In this document: in pieces, positions 5,358 through 35,076 of the stretch
How the letters are laid out: every line of letters begins with the position of its first letter
Position numbering within the stretch: the stretch's first letter is position 1
DNA from: Hydractinia symbiolongicarpus
Lineage: Eukaryota > Cnidaria > Hydrozoa > Anthoathecata > Hydractiniidae
Direction: 5' to 3'
Assembly (NCBI RefSeq): GCF_029227915.1
Contig: NC_079877.1
Span: 22,841,851-22,905,850 of the forward strand
DNA length: 64,000 nt
The notes under the pieces: model-generated
Databases searched by the model: none
What the model saw: the letters and a program-made list of their open reading frames with translations, nothing else
What the model was told of the DNA's origin: nothing
Translations under genes and position numbers: made by a program

Positions 5358-5981
5358 TCAATCAGAGTCAATCGTGATAATCTTTTCCGTTTTCTTCTTG
5401 CCATCTCGCCTTTTAGTAGTTGTTTTAATGCTAATGGTCTTGCTAAAAAAACTTCGGATATCTTTCTGATTGCTCGCTTCATCTTTGGACTTGCTCTTCT
5501 TCGATTGGGATGAAGTGGAAGGTAAATTGATGCTTTCCTCGGTCACATTATTAGGTTGTAAAAAGGATCCCAGATTTTCCTCATTCTTGGGTTCAATGTA
5601 CAATTCCTCTATAAGTTGTTTATATTTTTCCATCAACAGAAGGTTAATACAAATACCAGCAATTTTCACTGTGATTTTACATGGAATCTCCATACCGCCT
5701 TGAACGATGGGAGAGCGTCTATAATGTTCACTTGTAAGCTTGGCATTAACGATTGCTCCTCTATCCATGAAAAATTTTGTAACACGCGAGATCTCTCGTG
5801 GAAGATGACCAACTGCATTTGTATCTCCTATTTCGCAAACCTTGATCGCGAAACGATCAAAGGGATTTCCAAACTCGTGATGACATTCTAGAAATTGTTC
5901 TCTCTGAGGATTCCAAAAGCTTTTATAATAATGGTATCCTCTTACTGCTGCTGAAAATTCGAAAACTTTACTGTACGCCAT
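5358..5981 (-). CDS. HIRAN-domain protein carried by a transposon
   Basis: An intact single-exon frame of 207 residues. Residues 1-115 match the HIRAN fold: 'AAVRGYHYY' near the start, 'NPFDRFAIKVCE' around residue 40 and 'VGHLPREISRV' around residues 57-67. This is the conserved N-P-x-D-x-x-A-I-x-V and G-x-L-P pattern. HIRAN domains bind DNA 3' ends or damaged DNA in HLTF and Rad5-type remodelers; here no helicase or RING domain follows. The C-terminal 70 residues are low-complexity, rich in Ser and Lys, and may contain a nuclear localisation signal. The gene lies fully inside the terminal inverted repeats at 5053 and 7158, divergent from the gene at 6581. It is therefore most likely a transposon passenger or accessory protein. 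I recall similar stand-alone HIRAN proteins being highly repeated in invertebrate genomes. The domain call is firm; the role in transposition is inference. Confidence 0.8.
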   Translation of the reverse strand: MAYSKVFEFSAAVRGYHYYKSFWNPQREQFLECHHEFGNPFDRFAIKVCEIGDTNAVGHLPREISRVTKFFMDRGAIVNAKLTSEHYRRSPIVQGGMEIPCKITVKIAGICINLLLMEKYKQLIEELYIEPKNEENLGSFLQPNNVTEESINLPSTSSQSKKSKSKDEASNQKDIRSFFSKTISIKTTTKRRDGKKKTEKIITIDSD

Positions 5982-6092
5982 CTTACAGTGACAGTAACTT
6001 TCTTCTGTACTTTCTTGTTTCCTTCTTGTCTCAATAAGTTTGTCCTCATTGTTTGACTCTCTTTTACTTCAGTCTCCTTTACTTCAGCGAGT

Positions 6093-14700: not shown

Positions 14701-17700
14701 GAGTTGCTGGATTGTCACCTAAAATTTCTGAATCAACGAAACATCTTTTGGAAAAATCATATACTGGCAACTCAACTCCAGCAACAACTGATGCTCTTTG
14801 AGCTGTTGGTCCTACACCCTACAAAACAAACACTAAGGCATATTTTTTATAAAAATAAAGGACAGGCTCAAGTTTTTTAGTTACCAATGGATTACATTTA
14901 AAATTGTTATGGTGATTTATCAATAAAACAGCATGTCCCTTACCCGATATAAACCACTTAATCCTTCCATTTTGTATATGTTGACGAACGAATGAAGCAT
15001 ACTATGTTCAGCTATTACCGTACCTGCCGTCTGGGCCTGGAGACGCACTTTTAAGACATCAGTTGGATTACATAAAGCAGATGAAAGAGCACCTGCAACT
15101 ATACCAGCAAACATATTTAATGCCAAAGTTTCATCTTTTGGATCCTTTGTTATCAAACGTTTGATTCCATGGTAAAGTCCAATTTTAATTGTTCCATATG
15201 TCGCTTGGCGTAGTAATGCAGGCTTTATACCATTATACAAAGCTGTCACACCCTCTTCTTTGCTAATCCGGTACATTGCATGTAACATACCTCTGTATCG
15301 CATTTCTTTTAATGAATTATTGATTACTTGACCTTGAACTTGTAGCCTTGTTTTTGTTGTATCAATAGGAAAAGTACCTACAATAAAATTTTTAATTTAT
15401 TATTCCTTTATAATGGCAAATTATATAATTAAACTTTAAACACAAGACCCCTCCTGCATACTTTTCACCTTTGTACCATACACTAAAATATATAGGAAAG
15501 TGAAGTACCTCATGAAAAGCATATATAGCAGGCAAATATTATTAGTTCTTATATCGATCTTAAAGTAAATGTTGCACAGGTAATTTTTCTGGTAACAAAG
15601 AAGAAGCTTAATTGTTGACAGGCCTAATACCTAAGGTTAATTATATACTTTTATATATTTTAATATAATTAATAAACTATGCAAACATTTAAATTTATAT
15701 TTTATATATTATAGACCATAACTTTGTCAACAGTGTTGGATTGACAAATTAGAATTTCCAACCTTAGAAAATCTGAATGCTCCACGAAATTTTATCAACT
15801 TACTTTTTATGTGTTTCAAAGTTATGCTTGCAGAATGCGAGTTGTGTAAAAGAAGAATGAAGATTATAACTGTATTATCTTAAAAGAACCTTCGGTACAG
15901 ACAGAAAAACAACACAATTTTACACTTTGATAGACACCATATTGTGTGTCCAAAGTATGTCTATGCATCTACAAAATAAGCCTTTAACCAAAGTGTAATG
16001 GATAATGATGCATGTCTGAACAGAATGAGCAGATATCACAATAACATCTTCAACTCTAATATCAAATGTGTCTAGAAGCACAAGCAAGAAGAGTGCATAT
16101 ATACCATGCTGGCAATTGAAATCAAGTACACCCATAATCTTCAGCAGAACACCAGAAAATGTTTTTGATTGATGAATCTGTGCAACATTTAGCAGTTTAA
16201 AATTTCTCACCCGATTGGGGCATGTCTTACTTAATTTGGAAGTTGCAGACCTGCAAGATTAGATAAATTTACGCAACAGGTAATGAGAAGTTCCGAATGT
16301 TTAAAAAGTCTTAAATGAGAGAGCATTCCTAACACCCAAGAAAAGAAGGACCACATACGCTGAATTGCCTATTTAGGCCAAGTTATAGAAGTTTGGGAAT
16401 ACAAAATTCAAAATGCATAGATGAGTTTCAATGTTTACGTTTTTACAGAATTCTTGTGTATATGTGCAGAAAAAATTAGAAAAATCGGTCTAAAAAAGAG
16501 GTCTAGGGATTAGAAACAACATGCATCACGATAAAAGTCATCTATTGGAATACACCTCTTCACAGTTCCGTGAATTTCGCGTGCGAAGATCACGTGACCA
16601 TTATGTCATCCTTAAAAAGATAATCGCAATCACACAATCTGAAGAAGACATTCTTATTTTCAACTCACGCTAGTACGAAGTCATGGATATTTGTCTTAAA
16701 ATACAGAAAATTTTGTTGAAAATATGGAAAAAACTGCTGAGAGTGGAAAAAAAGTGTTCCAGAACTTGTGCTGTCATTAACTGCAGTCATAGTGAGTACG
16801 ACTTGGATGTTTGGGACAGCCAAACTTGTGAAACCCACAAAGTTGTCAGGAGTTCTTGTTGCTGTGTAAAACCTTAAGAGTGAGTTTTGATGAAGTTGTG
16901 TTAAGCACTTCTTAATGAAGACCTTGCTGATTGCTTCAAAATATCTGTTGGCTTAACTAGCAACATTATAGATTTATGGTTGAAAGCTGCTTCAGCAGCA
17001 TTGAGACCTATTGTATATGTACCAGACGAAGATAAAATATCCAATACTCTACCAAAAAGATTCAAATCATTGCCCAAAATGGATTCAATTTTAGATGGCA
17101 CAGAATTTTTTATTGAAAAGCCAAAAAATCTGGACCTTCAAAAGTTAACTTGGAGTGAGTATAAACACCACCACACTTTAAAAACTTTGGTATGTGTTGC
17201 GCCTAATTCTATGATTGCGTTTGTTTCCAAAGCATATGGAGGTTCTATATCAGATAAGTAAATAACAAAGCGTTGTGGCTATCTTGATTCGCAACAGTTT
17301 ATTTCGTATATGGCACCTCCTGGACGAAAAGGAGCTGCACAGATGACACCTGCAGAAGTTAAAAAAATGAAACACATTGCAAATTTGAGGATTTTGGTGG
17401 AACAAGTCATCAGACGAATGAAAACGTTTCGCATACTGGCAACTATTTCCATGTTAAAACTTTTTGACTATGTGGTAACGATATGTGCAGTCCTAAGCAA
17501 TATGAGAAAACCTATTTATTTTGATTAATTATATAACATTTTTCTAGGTTTATTATACTATATTTATTGATAATGTGAAAAAGACATTTTGAAATCTTTG
17601 AAAATTCATTTTAATGTGTAAAATTTCAAATGTTACATGTAAAAATTATCAAAGATTTAAAATGTCTTGCAGTGTCTATTTTTCATAACATTAACTATGA

Positions 17701-26545: not shown

Positions 26546-27035
26546 ATAATGAGTTATATTTAGGAGGATATATCCTCCAGGTTAAAGAAGTTCACTCGAA
26601 GAGATAATTAGAGGATCGAAATCAACCAATCAGATCACAGCAATTAAAGTAATTAACGTTTTCACGGACTCAGATGGAAGCAATAGATTGATTAAAATCT
26701 TTCCTTTTTCCCAAAAGCTCGATCTTACGTTTCTTTTTTTTAAAAGTTCGTTTTTTGTTACGTTTGTCCCGAACAATTTTTTGCACTTTTTTCTAAATGT
26801 TCGCCTTCCGAAGTGTGGGTAAGCATATTTCTGGAAGTTGAAAGGAAATACTATTTTTATGAGTAGTTCTGTCTATATCATTTGACGTTACTTCACTGTA
26901 CACAAATGTACCGATAAAGGACACATTATATATCAACAGGGAATTACTGCTAAATGATGATGAGTATGAGAACGAAGCACGAAGTCCTATTGACACACTA
27001 ATGTCCTTGGTCGAAGTGGTGCTTCAAAAAGTTCA
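26546..27035. other. Intergenic, short palindrome
   Basis: It contains a perfect 16-bp palindrome GGAGGATATATCCTCC at 26563-26578. Otherwise no feature is recognised. Confidence 0.5.
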
Positions 27036-27450
27036 GTGTGTATGCCATATATACCAGGGACAAGTAACATACTTCGCCGGGTATCGAAAGATCATAAAAT
27101 AAAGCCAGTGTTTCAATCTAAAAACACGCTACGTAGTATACTGTCGCATCCGAAAGACAAATTATGTCTAGAGAGTCAACAATGTAATCTTGTCTACGAA
27201 ATCCCGTGTAAGGATTGTGATGCTGTTTATGTTGGTGAAACAAAACGAATGTTTAAACAACCTGTGCATGAGTACAAAAGAGCCGTATACAACGCAGATA
27301 CAGAAAAAAATGAGATTGCGGAATATAGCTGGAAGAATAATCATGTTATTGGCTGGGACAATAAAAAGATCATAGACCAAGAGTCTGGTTAGACAGCAAG
27401 AAAAGTAAAAGAAGCCATAAATAGTATGATTATGATCATTTCCCGTCGAT
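27036..27450 (+). pseudogene. Penelope-like element fragment with GIY-YIG endonuclease domain
   Basis: The frame runs 'CMPYIPGTSNILRRVSKDHK', then 'FQSKNTLRSILSHPKDKL', then 'CNLVYEIPCKDCDAVYVGET' and 'HEYKRAVYN'. This is the conserved linker and GIY-YIG nuclease of Penelope-like retroelements: the 'YEIPCxxCxxxYVGET.R' line with its tyrosines and the downstream His. The frame stops at 27392 (TAG where Trp is expected) and continues for a few codons as 'TARKVKEAI' before decaying. The reverse transcriptase core is not found upstream, so it is a 5'-truncated dead copy. It lies just downstream of the peroxidase-glycyl radical gene. Confidence 0.8.
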
Positions 27451-28194: not shown

Positions 28195-31100
28195 CTATTT
28201 GTTTTTATGCATCTTGTGGTCAACAACAACCGCGTAAGGACGTCTCAAATGTTGATGCTAGAAATAAAAGGAATAAAGAAAATAAGAGTAACTAAATCAA
28301 ATGTGCACTACCCCATTCATTAAAACATTTTTTCTGGTTTGAAAAGTTCTTTTAAAAATCGGTGTTACAATGTCACCAGAAAATACAGGCTTAATAACAG
28401 ATTAAAGATGGCGTACCTGATGAGCTGAATAAAAGGAAACATAGAATTCAGACCATCCACCAGTTCGAACACGCAGAAGATCGTATTTCTCTGGATTCTT
28501 TAATGCCGCGTTGTAACTTGAATGGTTTGCACAAGTAACTAAAAAAACAGCACCGGAATAATAACTGTTACGAAGGCAGACCTAAAACTTTTATGGAACA
28601 TATTCTACAAACTTACTGGTGAGAATATTTCCACCCAAGCGTCTTTGACCTTTTGCATAATGTTTTATGAAGTCCGATAAACTATCCTCATTCGTGTTTT
28701 CATCAATTGTCAAATCAATCTCAGAACCATTTGGAAATCCGGTTTTGATGGCATCGATGTCCCAATACTTTAACAATCTAAAATAGTACAATAATGTACG
28801 AAATCTTGTTCAGTATTACACCGATGAAAATTAAAGAAACATGCGCGTACTTGTATATATTTTCTTCTCGTCGCGGTAGTTCCGGCAAATCTTGTGGAAT
28901 TGGACCAGGACTCATATCAGAAGCAATTGGCTGACCTGTAATGGTTAGCGAAGGTTAAAATTGTTTGAAGAAAAGTTAGTAACAAAGCAAATGTCCAGAG
29001 ACAGGCACCTACCTCTTCTTCTACCATCTGCAGATGCCCCAATACCAAGCCCCCATCCGACATAACCTTCAAAAGATCCTGATCCTAACATAAAGTTAAT
29101 AAATTTGGATGGATCGCTTGTCGTGCCATAACGATCATTTAGACTTTTTAGCAAATCCTTTAATGGATACTTGTCAGAGGTTGTTACTTCTTTAAAAGCA
29201 GCAACACATTCGTTTGAAAGCCATTCTGCGATTCCCTTGATTGTTTGTGGACGATAGCTGGAGTGAAAGTTTTTAAGGCTGTACTTTTCCTTAGAGCGCT
29301 GACCTATTTTTGGCAAGTTGAGCACGAATTTTCGAGCCAGTTTCATATTTTCAGAGCTGATAGAACAGCTCAGTTGGCCATCGGCTGGATCATGATGTGG
29401 TTCTTGCAAGGAGAAACCCCAATCAGCATGCAAGGTTTTTACCATCTGCTCGAATGATAACATCGATTTCTCACCGAAACACAATTCTTGAATTCCATAA
29501 AGAGAATCAACCGTATTGGCAAACGAAATCAACATGCAACCAATTATTTTTATAGCAGCACCACCATTGTAGATATCTCGACCTGTTTCCAAGCAACCGT
29601 CAATCATACATGACAACAATTGTGATGCGTATGCTTTATACATGTTTCCATAGTTGCTAAGCAACCCGAAGATGGCGTCATGAATTTGTAATCGCAGATG
29701 TTTGCCAAACTGCTTCTTCAGATCTTCCATATTTCTGATGTCACCAGAACCAGGCCGAAGTTCCCTTGACACAGCGAAGCCTCTCATCCCGGATGGACCG
29801 GCTTCACTGATGGTAGCCCCGCGGTTAATTGTCATCTCCAGAACTTGTAACAATGGGACATAACAAAATGAGAATTCAGTTTTACCTGGTACAATTGGCT
29901 CGTAACAGCCATCACTGGAATAGTCGATTGCATCATTTTCACTGATGTTTGTCGACACAAGGGCAGGGATCAGATATTCATCCCTGAGCAATACCGGATG
30001 TGCACCTCCACTTAAGATTGCTTTACTAGCCTCCTTAATCAAATCAACGTCCATATCAGAATGAAGTCGCAATGATAAGCATGGTGCATTTAAAGGTAAT
30101 CTTCGCGCTGCATTCAGACAAAGTTTTGCAATCGCGATTCTGGATGCAGAAGGTGGCTGTTTTACTCCATTTTTGTCAACTGAATATCCACCAATAGTAG
30201 CTTGCTGAACCCACTGATTATTACCATCTCCTCGACCGAACTTACCATCGCTCCTGTATGGGACTGCTATGCACCCAACAGCGTACAAATCTCGTCGCGT
30301 CTGCCGGTTTATTTGTGCTCGTTCGCCTAACTTGATCCAGAAGCAGTCGATGAGATCTTGGTTGTTAGGATTTGTAGAATCAAAGAATTCTTCCAGTATG
30401 ACATCCAGCCTTCCAATAGAAACTGGTTCACAACACAGATGCAAAGAGATATGCAACACCAAAAGCAGTTGAAGAGCTTCCTGAAGATCTCTCGGTTTGC
30501 CTGTGCCATCTGTCTTTCCATCCCCGGAGTCACCATTTGCTAACCATTTTAGGCGAGCCGCCATTGCTGTTAAGTTGTCTCTCTCCGATTTTGGTAGAGT
30601 AAATCTAATATCGTCCACACTTTGCCCTTTAGATGCTAAATGTCCAGCAAGCGAGCCATAATTCTCCATATACTTTTGTATTCCAACAAAAGCAATTTTG
30701 CAACTTTCCAAGTACTCCCTTTTTTCTCCTTGTGTAGTAGGATCAAAGCTACCAATCATTACGTCTAGTTCTTTAAGAAACGCTGGAATTCCTTTTTGGA
30801 TGATTTTTTTGTAATTTGGGACGACGTGGCCAAAACCTGATGTTTCTGATAATTTAGCCGAGTAAGCCATTATGTTTTCAGCGGAAAGTTCTGTTTCAGT
30901 GTCTTTCACATAATATGGCATTGCAATCTGCCCAACACCCAAGCCGAATATGGGCATTTTACCAGCTAGTAAATCCTTCGGATCTATTTGAAATAAATCA
31001 TTGAGCCTGCCATAATGATTTTCAATATCATTAAATTGGTTTGTCGTAAAGATGCATTCCAGGGATAACCTGATAGTCCAAGCCTTACGAACGACCAAGG

Positions 31101-34100
31101 AAAGGGACATAATGTTAGGCAAAGTTGCTTTAGGAGCTACATCTTCAAGATGAGGTATAGGGTGGCATGTCTTCTCCTGAAACCAAGTGTGATCCCATTG
31201 CTCAAACATGGCAACCAATAAGCTTAAAACTCTTCCAGTTGGAGGGTCAGGATAAGGCTTGTACCCTATTTTACGATTCTTAGAATCACCCATCCTGTAA
31301 AGGTATTCCTTGTGATTGTAGAACAGATAATCGTTGGCGGAAGGCTTGATGTTCCAGTGATCCAACAGCAGATCGTGGTGGGGATTGTCGCCAATGGTAA
31401 TGGTTTCGTCGAATTCCTTCATTGCAGGCACATAATAAAATGCACCATCGGTAGTAGTAACAGTTGAAATCAACAAGTCATTTGTGACCGACTCTTGAGT
31501 ACCAACCATGTTTTCCAATAATTTTTTGATATACGTGGTCGACTTTGCAACAGACATGTAAAATATACCATCTTCTTTGTTGGCGCCGCCAAACCCACCC
31601 TTATGTTCATCATCAACCTCCACAGCAAATGTCATTGAAAGGCGATGTATCTTAAAATTGGATCGAGCGTTGTGCGAAGGTTCTGTAACATGAGCGCATT
31701 TAATGTGAGCTCTTTCACTCTTCGCCATTACTATTGTACTATCCTGATGTCGACCCAACATGCGCGATATGTCTGAAGAATTCTTTTGCCCCAAAATATC
31801 CCATGTGAAGAGAAATCTCTGATGCAACATGTAGCTCCCGCCTGGCCACCCATTTACACCACCCACGCAGCCAGTCGACTCCTGAATTATCATTGGATCA
31901 GTTTTGTTAGCCAACCCATCCACAAACAAGCCACTAATAACATCCTTCGCATCACATTTCTGTTCCTCCTTCTTCAGATTGAACTGTGAAACAATGTTAT
32001 CCACTTCAGCTTCGAATTCATTTACTCTTTTGGTGAAAAGGGCATCACCAGCTTGGTTGGTACGTACAGCGATGATACAAAAACCTGAAAATAAATATCG
32101 AAACAGGTACGTGTTATTATCACCACAAATACGAAGCAAATAAGAGCTTGCTGGTTAGAGCTATTTTAGAAGTAAAAACCTTGGCGCAAATAACTTCAAA
32201 ATTTATTTTTTTGCTTTTTAACTTTCGCGAATAGAAAGAAAGGGGAGGAATGATTTATATATGATTTATATAAAATTACACCTTGCCTTGGTGTATATAA
32301 AGACAATCAGGGACTGTACATTGGCTCTCTTTAAGCGGCTATGGAGAAATTTAAAAAGAATTGCCCTTAAGCATTCGATTTAAAAATTTAATCCAAAAGT
32401 ATTTGCAATTAATTGTGATACGAGCAGCTTTTAAGTGAGAATAAAATTAGATCAGGAGAAAAATAAAACATACAAGCGTTTTACCTGCAGTATTCACAAA
32501 TTTTTTACTGTGCGGAACGATATACATTCCGTCGTCTCTTTGCTCTAATTTGCCAGCTTTTTCACGCCATCCTGAATTGTTTTTGTGTACATCTTCCCAC
32601 ACTTGTGGATCGAACCCTACCACAACATTAAACTGTCTAACATTGAACTGTTTCCATGTATTCCGGATTAATGCTTTCAACGCAAGACATGCCTATTGCA
32701 CAAAAAAATTGTATTATTTGTAATTTAGGGATTCATGCATTGGAAATAACAATTTATGCTATAGCGGTTAACCCCCTGTTTTTAAGGGTGTTGCGGTAAT
32801 TTTACCACTGCCATATAATTTGAGAGATGCAAAAACGCTACGAAACTTTGCATAGTAACTGATAAAAAGAGAAGTGTTTAACGGCGAAAAATTAATGCTG
32901 ACGTTATCATATTACAGCTTTTTGCAATATCTTCGGATTCTGTCATAATTGCCATGTCAAATGACAAGAAAAATTAGATCATTTATAACAATCTATGTTA
33001 AAAATGCTATAACGAAAAAAAAAGAGATCTTATTTTTAAAAAACCACCCTTTAACGTTGATGAAACTAAAAATTTAAAAACTATGAATTTTGTTCTACGG
33101 AAATAAAACTTTCCACTTTCCACAAAGTAAATGCCATAAAATTTCTAGCCTATACCTCATCTGGAACAAAGTTTTAAAAATAAACTGAGGAGAGTGGTAA
33201 AATCACGTCTTCCCTTAAAATAAGGTTAGATGAGGACATTATTTATGGTAGTAAAAACAGTTTTAAATTTTTATCATACTATCCTGAATCGGACCTTGTT
33301 ATTTTTATGAAGAAGTATTAAGTGTAACTTAGGAAGAATTTAAAAAAGATGAGTGACAATTTAGAAAAGCGTGGCTAAGATTATAAGAACATCTCGTGCT
33401 AGCTCGTGGTGAAGCTTAATAAACTTTCTAATCCAAGTTAAAAACATCCAGGCTGCGAATAATTTGTTTCTTTAAAAAAAGAGGTGCTGTGAGAAACTAA
33501 CACAAGTAATGATCTCTCGTAGAAATGTGTGATTTGGTATGGGCTGCGGTCCGTCATGGTAGTAACGAAAAGGGGCGCGAATAGTATCAAAATCAAAGCC
33601 ACCACAAATAGTGCGCTATATTGAACAAAAGTTTTTGTTTATGTATCGTTTTTTTGCGTATAGCAGCATTTTTTTGTTGTTTTCTTATTATCGTGTAGCT
33701 TTATATAGTATACCCAATATAATGAAACCAAATGAGGGTGTTCATTGTCTTGAAATTATTGTTTTGATTTACTGTATGTTGACAATGTTATAATGTTCGA
33801 AATTGACTCGAGTTGTGTGCATTCCACAATTATCGAAAAATAGTCACAACTTTTAATATTTTTCAATTTATTATCATCTCTTTCTTTAAGTCTATGCCTT
33901 AATATTTTCTATCAGATTCTATCATTGTATATTTTATATTTTAACAAATACATTTTTATTATTTATCATCATAGTGTTGTGTGAGTGTTCAAACCGCTTC
34001 AGTTCTTGTTGTTTTTACATGAGACATTAGAAATTCGATTGACAATACTTTATGTTAAAACTTGACATCCATGTGTATGTGTACAAATCAAAACATCATT

Positions 34101-35076
34101 TTACGACGTTTCGGGTGTCATACACCCATTTTCAAGTAAAATAATTATACAACATGTCTATATAAACAAGAACGTTGCCATAGACACAAGATATATAAGC
34201 ATAATCAATACAATATTTAAGTATAAAGTATGTGTACAATACAAAGTGTGATTAAACCGGACGGTTTTCTTGTTAATTTTTTTTTATACGAGACCATTTT
34301 CAGGGTTTAAAGGTACAGTTTTTTGTTCGCAGATAAAATAAAATAAAATTTCTAGCTGTCATGTAGCGGTTTTTAGTTTCATGTTGACTTTGGATGTAAA
34401 GCTAAATTCACACTGAAAACGCAGTTCCTCGCGGCGCGCCACATAGCCGAATGACTTTTGTATTTTTTTTGTTCACATTAGATTTTACAAAATGTGTGGA
34501 TGAAATTCCTATACAGACAATACGAGGTGATTCAGTAGAACTTTAAAAACAAAAACAAATCCAGAAATGTTTCTAAGTGTTCAAATTTTACTTTTGGTTT
34601 TGATATTACAAACACAGAATCGAAACTATAAACTTTACGAAAAATGAAAGATATTTCCGTGTGTTATTTTTGCGTTTTTAGTATATAAGAAAACAAATTA
34701 ATGAAGCTTCGGCCATTTCCAACTTTATTGTTCTTACAAAATTGTTCTTACTTTTAAAAGGGAAAGATACCATTCTTATCTCCAAAGCTCTTTGGGATTA
34801 AAACGTTGTCTTAAAGAGCTCTGAGGTCGAGAATGAGAAAGATACCTGTTAAGTATCTGTTTTAAGCCTTCACTAAATTTTGAAGCCACACACAAAAATA
34901 ACAATTACAGGACCATGTCAAAGAAACAAAAACAAAATAAAAACTAAAAAAAGAAAACTTACACCAGATTTGTCTGTCGTTTCTGTTGTCACTTTCAACA
35001 CGTACATATTTCCATATTTGGGCTGCGGATACAGCAAGCCCTCTTGCATAAGAAATTCAGTTTCCTCCGCTGCCAT
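28195..35076 (-). CDS. Fusion of Dyp-type peroxidase and glycyl radical enzyme
   Basis: Seven GT-AG exons, all in phase: 35076-34963, 32692-32485, 32084-29013, 28935-28851, 28777-28617, 28538-28417 and 28257-28195, giving 1,274 residues. Residues 1-304 look like a whole dye-decolorizing peroxidase: 'NVVVGFDPQVWEDV' (about 60), the 'GLFVDGLAN' motif with catalytic Asp163, 'GGSYMLHQRF', and 'AHIKCAHVTEPSHN' (233-246) with candidate haem-ligand His. 'EDGIFYMSVAKS' closes the domain. From about 420 to the end is a glycyl radical enzyme: 'GCYEPIVPGKTEF' with thiyl Cys834 and base Glu836, 'GIGASADGRRRG', and near the C terminus 'LLRVRTGGWSEFY' with radical Gly1241. The GCxEP motif puts it with diol-dehydratase/CutC-like enzymes, not true pyruvate formate-lyase, which has Cys-Cys. 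The substrate is unknown. A radical-SAM activase is required and none is nearby. The start is the first ATG after a TATA box. Domain calls are firm; physiology is inferred. Confidence 0.88.
32693..34962. other. Intron 1 of the peroxidase-glycyl radical gene
   Basis: A 2.27-kb intron. It contains a Penelope-like terminal segment near 34085-34230 and otherwise no recognised exon or repeat. Confidence 0.55.
34085..34230. repeat. Penelope-like terminal segment
   Basis: The stretch 'acgacgtttcgggtgtcata' and the following 'cacccattttcaagt' is the kind of sequence that marks the ends of Penelope-like elements. No coding region is attached. The family is recognised from the phrase only. Confidence 0.4.

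Follow-up and report, generated by a model that had tools for sequence, protein, structure and literature searches.

A cnidarian gene fusing a DyP-type peroxidase to a glycyl radical enzyme, and a possible peroxide-driven origin for its radical

How does a glycyl radical enzyme (GRE) obtain its radical when its steady partner is a haem peroxidase? Known GREs depend on a radical-SAM activase, whose gene is commonly adjacent, and to our knowledge all characterised GREs are activated in this way and work without oxygen. The question is raised by a gene of the hydrozoan Hydractinia symbiolongicarpus, located in a 64,000-nucleotide stretch of contig NC_079877.1 (positions 22,841,851 to 22,905,850, forward strand; hereafter the window). 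An earlier reading, made from the sequence alone, had described it as a DyP-type haem peroxidase fused to a full GRE in an animal, and this description is borne out, both domains being matched on one frame. The gene is a member of a rare, old DyP-GRE family, in which we tentatively propose that the peroxidase takes the place of the activase.

The gene lies on the minus strand at 28195-35076 of the window, and its seven exons, all on that strand, join into a single open frame of 1,274 amino acids. All six introns have a GT donor and an AG acceptor, with matching phases. Exon 1 (34963..35076, residues 1-38) starts the DyP domain, which continues in exon 2 (32485..32692, residues 39-108, containing VVVGFDPQVW). 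Exon 3, of 3,072 bases (29013..32084, residues 108-1132), encodes the remaining DyP domain, a linker and most of the GRE barrel. It is followed by exons 4 (28851..28935, residues 1132-1160), 5 (28617..28777, residues 1160-1214), 6 (28417..28538, residues 1214-1254, bearing the glycyl-radical loop) and 7 (28195..28257, residues 1255-1274 and the stop codon). The sequence-only reading had proposed one spliced frame running from the peroxidase into a full GRE, and the seven-exon frame with its splice phases confirms it. Mis-joining of adjacent genes was ruled out: the fusion is not a gene-joining artefact, because the single exon 3 carries parts of both domains.

A protein from another source, P0001, has the same length (1,274 amino acids) and is 97% identical to the window protein (38 differences). 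The longest contig in its source cluster is 3,973 bases, too short for an intron-bearing gene of 6.9 kb, and therefore P0001 is most likely a spliced mRNA across both domains. Confirmation of the mRNA, for which the earlier reading had called, would thus come from this probable transcript, which speaks for a close relative, but not for this individual. Bacterial contamination was also ruled out, by the introns, by orthologues in Hydra and Clytia, by a paralogue on another contig, by the long contig itself (in a 480.9 Mb, 76-contig assembly) and by a mitochondrial-carrier exon in the window. The paralogue is a second DyP-GRE gene of the same genome (L081, contig C2, 23986958-23988562), about 64% identical over the large exon, with the Cys, the Glu and the RVRTGGW glycine retained.

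Two Pfam profiles matched the window protein over their cut-offs: the PFL-like domain at residues 515-1035 (E 5.6e-63) and Dyp_perox_C (PF20628) at residues 161-330 (E 2.4e-10, 40.8 bits against a cut-off of 20). Below their cut-offs were the NCBIfam models Dyp_perox_fam (TIGR01413; residues 11-330, E 5e-22, 78.6 bits against 100.5) and PFL2-3 (E 2.6e-48), as well as the Gly_radical profile PF01228 (E 0.029, 15.4 bits against 22.2), for which relatives in L076 and L079 scored 31 bits. The profile check suggested earlier therefore succeeded for the peroxidase and PFL-like domains, with the glycyl-radical profile giving a match below its threshold. The catalytic residues stand at exactly the positions that had been named. 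GCYEP at 833-837 contains Cys834 (29905..29907), at the thiyl-radical cysteine position, and Glu836 (29899..29901), a conserved GRE position that we take to be that of the catalytic base of GRE dehydratases, while RVRTGGW at 1236-1242 places Gly1241 (28456..28458) at the glycyl-radical position. In the DyP domain, His234 (31705..31707; His in 98/98 fused rows of our alignment) is presumably at the proximal haem-ligand position. Asp163 (31918..31920; Asp or Glu in 88/98) is assumed by homology to be the distal acid of the pocket, and Arg255 (31642..31644; Arg in 88/98) is taken to be the distal arginine. All of these codons are on the minus strand. A confident structure model of a bacterial relative, P0027, contains both folds. 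Thus, the gene almost certainly encodes, as judged from these features, one bifunctional enzyme with an N-terminal DyP-type haem peroxidase and a C-terminal GRE.

The GRE residues are conserved from bacteria to animals, with Glu in 143/143 rows, Gly in 143/143 and Cys in 141/143 (absent in P0035 and P0087), although some rows are identical or near-identical (for example P0042 and L001) and row counts are not independent. By group, the glycine is kept in 23/23 animal rows, 75/75 bacterial fused rows and 45/45 rows without a DyP part, a count that omits P0029, which has Asp at that position, and some truncated rows; P0020 is counted among the 45, yet it falls inside the animal clade. P0029, a fusion from Mytilus coruscus, has a predicted extra C-type lectin domain together with its broken glycine loop, possibly through a gene-model error.

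Protein relatives were taken as the best 120 of 311 matches, with 7,992 candidates scored. Among the matches listed, the closest named relatives are from Hydra vulgaris (56%) and Clytia (52%), and the named animals are Hydra, Clytia, Acropora, Macrobrachium, Halocaridina, Patiria, Branchiostoma and Mytilus. When genomes of bacterial and archaeal species were scanned, 95 relatives were found, and the best 80 were analysed as bacterial loci; their hosts span at least ten phyla, including Bacteroidota, Pseudomonadota, Myxococcota, Actinomycetota and Cyanobacteriota. Tree and neighbour counts use 76 of the 80 loci, since L029, L032, L044 and L049 gave no GRE match among their open reading frames. 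The family is rare: unfused-GRE queries matched the seed genome only, in 1/240, 1/396 and 1/397 sampled genomes, and that seed genome (G309) carries both a fused and an unfused copy. Records covering at least 80% of P0042 comprised zero phages and one plasmid. The earlier suggestion of an anaerobic or hypoxia-related enzyme is not supported by this distribution. Many bacterial hosts belong to aerobic genera such as Acinetobacter, Pedobacter and Corallococcus, though anaerobic groups are also represented by a few hosts (Desulfobacca, Scalindua).

A tree built from 145 rows of the GRE part placed the 99 fused-group rows on one side of a branch with support 100, and 24 animal rows on one side of a branch with support 98 (SH-aLRT values from quick searches, here and below). 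This tree omits P0005, P0006, P0017, P0028, P0029, P0031, P0034 and P0082, loci L038, L040, L046, L073 and L074, and all Pedobacter but three; ten rows (P0001, P0002, P0007-P0011, P0014, P0015 and P0020) were assigned to animals by tree position. A mixture-model tree of 57 rows again split off 21 animal rows (99), and, as it has no outgroup, it is no test of the fused group. Within the animal clade, rows around Hydra, Clytia and Acropora cluster (96 and 89). This cluster next joins crustacean-like rows (100 in both trees) to the exclusion of the deuterostomes, an order at odds with the species tree. The simplest reading suggested by these trees is a single early entry into animals, with duplications, losses or a rooting error; gene transfer among animals, or repeated entry from a single donor group, would be the alternative.

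The earlier reading left it as a question whether this architecture had been described, and it had. PMC5041501 (2016), citing Strittmatter et al. 2014, presents a fusion of an N-terminal DyP and a C-terminal PFL-like GRE in Chaetomium, to which the window protein corresponds in domain order and in having both domains on one frame. The fusion is called unique there, present in distantly related prokaryotes and eukaryotes and of elusive significance. The Chaetomium DyP-PFL is fungal and is said to derive from bacteria, whereas the window gene falls in an animal clade, in trees without fungal sequences. A figure legend in the same source includes deuterostome and mollusc DyP sequences, which may or may not be fused.

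The DyP and the GRE occur together in two ways, fused in one protein or encoded by adjacent genes. In three Bacteroidota loci (L076, L077 and L079), a stand-alone GRE gene is followed immediately by a gene for a DyP with a HAD-like tail (the DyP assigned by Pfam in L076 and L079 and by phmmer in L077, the tail by eye). The same order occurs on a Hymenobacter plasmid (L094), where the annotation splits the GRE into two adjacent genes, and in an acidobacterial genome (L117). A DyP gene thus lies directly after the lone GRE in 5/5 unfused loci viewed in genomic context.

An activase was sought in the 79 distinct host genomes of the 80 loci, searched as sets of 43 and 37, and in 14 control genomes. 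The PFL-activase model TIGR02493 scored over its cut-off in 5/43 and 0/37 genomes, that is in 5/79 distinct bacterial hosts (controls 3/14), and TIGR02494 in 3/43 (controls 3/14). A conventional GRE lies next to each of the five over-cut-off activases, and the same holds for weaker activases in G302 and G311. Gly_radical was over its cut-off in 7/43 genomes: the five with over-cut-off activases gave strong scores, and G040 and G043 gave 31 bits, at the sites of the unfused GREs that belong to this family. At 1e-8, TIGR02493 matched nothing in 19/43 and 20/37 genomes, and the weaker matches that were inspected are AmmeMemoRadiSam, MoaA and NrdG-like proteins. Generic radical-SAM proteins are common, since Fer4_12 was over its cut-off in 29/43 host genomes (controls 10/14). 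A radical-SAM motif scan of the bacterial loci gave eight open reading frames in seven loci: an activase in L039, a MoaA-like protein in L056, and frames in L002, L037, L043, L055 and L057 that none of ten radical-SAM queries matched at 1e-3. L045 had a 25-bit radical-SAM match without the motif. Because several of the bacterial genomes are incomplete metagenome-assembled genomes, single absences mean little, and it is the pattern over many cultured species that counts. Most bacterial host genomes searched contain no recognised activase.

Since the steady partner in the bacterial loci examined is a haem peroxidase and not an activase, we favour a peroxide-driven GRE, whose radical would come from the peroxidase instead; we hold this as a possibility, with the balance of probability somewhat against it. 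DyP enzymes react with peroxide to give ferryl haem and protein radicals. In the fusion, hydrogen peroxide would likewise convert the DyP haem to a ferryl intermediate and generate a protein radical, and the oxidising equivalent might then be passed to Gly1241, or directly to Cys834. Ordinary GRE chemistry would follow, with the Cys thiyl abstracting hydrogen, Glu836 acting as base and an elimination taking place on the substrate. Class I (oxygen-dependent) and glycyl-radical class III ribonucleotide reductases share the same thiyl chemistry with different radical sources, and, by analogy only, a peroxide-driven GRE may stand to other GREs as class I does to class III. A broader proposal, of an aerobic GRE class switched by H2O2 through a fused or neighbouring haem peroxidase, with no radical-SAM activase, that entered animals before the cnidarian-bilaterian split, is more doubtful, and we rate it lower because the animal branching mismatches the species tree.

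Several observations weigh against peroxide-driven activation, and some of them favour a radical-SAM activase encoded elsewhere (canonical, NrdG-like, AmmeMemoRadiSam or unrecognised) that makes the glycyl radical and leaves the DyP with another role. Glycyl radicals are oxygen-sensitive. The glycine and cysteine are retained as in activase-dependent GREs. Ten of the 75 bacterial fused rows (L043, L045, L057, L059, L075, P0030, P0033, P0035, P0036 and P0040) have kept the haem-ligand His, but the distal acid is replaced by His and the distal Arg is missing, and because both are gone a peroxidase-driven step is doubtful in these ten. Strong Fer4_12 proteins (96-135 bits; the one typed, L103, is NrdG-like) occur without a conventional GRE in G001, G016, G019 and G022 (4/43), and these or AmmeMemoRadiSam proteins might act in trans; no DyP-GRE or conventional GRE was found in the 12-14 kb around the Fer4_12 genes of these four genomes and of G018. 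An activase fragment in G008 (116.6 bits) is not accompanied by a conventional GRE, nor does a GRE adjoin the 79.8-bit activase match in G317. The animal genome gave no TIGR02494 or TIGR02493 match in an exon-by-exon search, which is poor for intron-split genes, and this absence is weak because the same kind of search with Radical_SAM returned one exon only (lipoyl synthase, by eye). A putative PFL activase is reported in C. cochliodes (PMC5041501). Even so, no candidate is common to all hosts, given the genomes noted above that lack a TIGR02493 match at 1e-8. Nine genomes score above 65 bits, and in all of them but G008 and G317 the matching gene adjoins a conventional GRE. We regard an activase encoded elsewhere as unlikely.

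The sequence-only reading suggested that the peroxidase may protect the radical. Such protection, of the GRE radical or its iron-sulphur activase through removal of peroxide, can be upheld as possible, but it explains less, and we consider it quite unlikely. DyP enzymes consume peroxide and not oxygen, which is what destroys glycyl radicals; bulk peroxide removal needs neither fusion nor strict gene pairing; and the apparent lack of an activase in most bacterial hosts is left unexplained. It would fit the aerobic habit of many hosts and the induction of the fused Chaetomium gene by H2O2 (3-fold) and peroxyacetic acid (18.5-fold) reported in PMC5041501. It is improbable that the two domains act one after the other on a common substrate, for which a phosphate ester is a candidate given the phosphatase-, phospholipase- and nuclease-like genes nearby. 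Within four genes, 26/76 bacterial loci have a neighbour of six Pfam families (S1/P1 nuclease, 5'-nucleotidase/metallophosphatase, PLD-like, PF04185 phosphoesterase, DUF2608 and Endonuclease_NS), or 33/76 if four more neighbour groups (a gene of L056, one of L042, a HAD-like gene and the DyP-HAD gene) are added. However, the count of 26 is not independent, because the families were picked from the neighbours themselves, and the families are unrelated and absent in 50/76 loci (43 by the wider count). Retention of the GRE fold for a non-radical role is very improbable: the sub-threshold Gly_radical score, the many aerobic hosts, the loss of Cys in P0035 and P0087 and the loss of the glycine in P0029 would agree with it, but the near-invariance of Cys, Glu and Gly noted above would not.

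Comparison with characterised enzymes bears on the substrate. The window protein differs from glycerol and 1,2-propanediol dehydratase GREs (1r8w, 9rcp) by its fused DyP. His527 (30826..30828, minus strand; His in 98/98 fused rows and 44/45 without a DyP part) aligns with glycerol dehydratase His164. His281, Ser282 and Asp447 of that enzyme, which we take to be its glycerol-binding residues, correspond in a pairwise alignment to Glu660, Pro661 and Ser846. Because these pocket residues differ, glycerol is an unlikely substrate. YfeX-like DyP peroxidases (5vj0, 5gt2) are stand-alone enzymes, in contrast to the fused domain here, in which Leu replaces the first Gly of the DyP GXXDG motif. A loose precedent for a DyP serving a radical enzyme may be Streptomyces DtpA, a DyP without which the radical copper oxidase GlxA does not mature (PMC4736821); the authors of that work suggest that DtpA oxidises Sco-bound Cu(I).

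Our literature search, with most subscription journals and bioRxiv outside its coverage, found a single description of the fusion, PMC5041501, and no report on peroxidase activation of a GRE or on the animal clade. PMC7006924 has a table for the coral Porites under red-tide or toxin exposure that lists a 'dyp-type peroxidase family protein' with the values 1.03, 0.0076, 1.64 and 0.0010, a protein that may or may not be the fused one. PMC11879061 mentions a 'Dyp-type peroxidase' of Schistosoma, which likewise may or may not be fused, and PMC8526580 merely cites a GRE paper.

The hydrolase-type genes that recur near bacterial DyP-GRE genes may be a substrate clue or an effector set. They occur in L001, L004, L010, L018, L019, L024, L026, L028, L030, L041, L043, L045, L053, L054, L059-L065, L073, L075-L077, L079 and L094. 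A common downstream gene without a Pfam match, histidine-phosphatase-like by eye, is found in L056, L058, L067, L069, L070 and L072. A PF03781 formylglycine-generating-enzyme-like gene lies immediately upstream of the DyP-GRE in Asticcacaulis (L095, 6322-7326) and in a Pseudomonas (L055, 8723-9823). Genes for trypsin-like proteases, a STAND-type ATPase, TIR and CHAT domains are near L094, L117 and L028, as in bacterial conflict islands. A known defence system was rejected: P0027, the L076 DyP gene and the L045 HAD-like gene match no PADLOC model, and the PLD-like, trypsin-like and ATPase neighbours have weak or partial matches to some of them.

In the window itself, Penelope-like retroelement-resembling frames with a GIY-YIG-like end lie downstream of the gene (26863-27392, plus strand; by eye, no Pfam match). 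A 395-amino-acid open frame with an integrase core domain (PF24764; 9581-10768, minus strand) is a transposon remnant or a domesticated integrase. A HIRAN-domain frame (5358-6068) and the mitochondrial-carrier exon (14920-15396), both on the minus strand, are ordinary neighbours.

The DyP-PFL architecture was thus already in print, and what is new is the animal clade, the second copy, the DyP gene after lone GREs and the scarcity of activases. The family persists in animals and in scattered bacteria, many of them aerobes; it is linked to a haem peroxidase, and a recognised activase is mostly absent. If peroxide-driven activation is correct, it would be a second way of starting GRE chemistry, perhaps workable in air, and Hydra, corals, shrimps, starfish and amphioxus would possess an unstudied radical enzyme.

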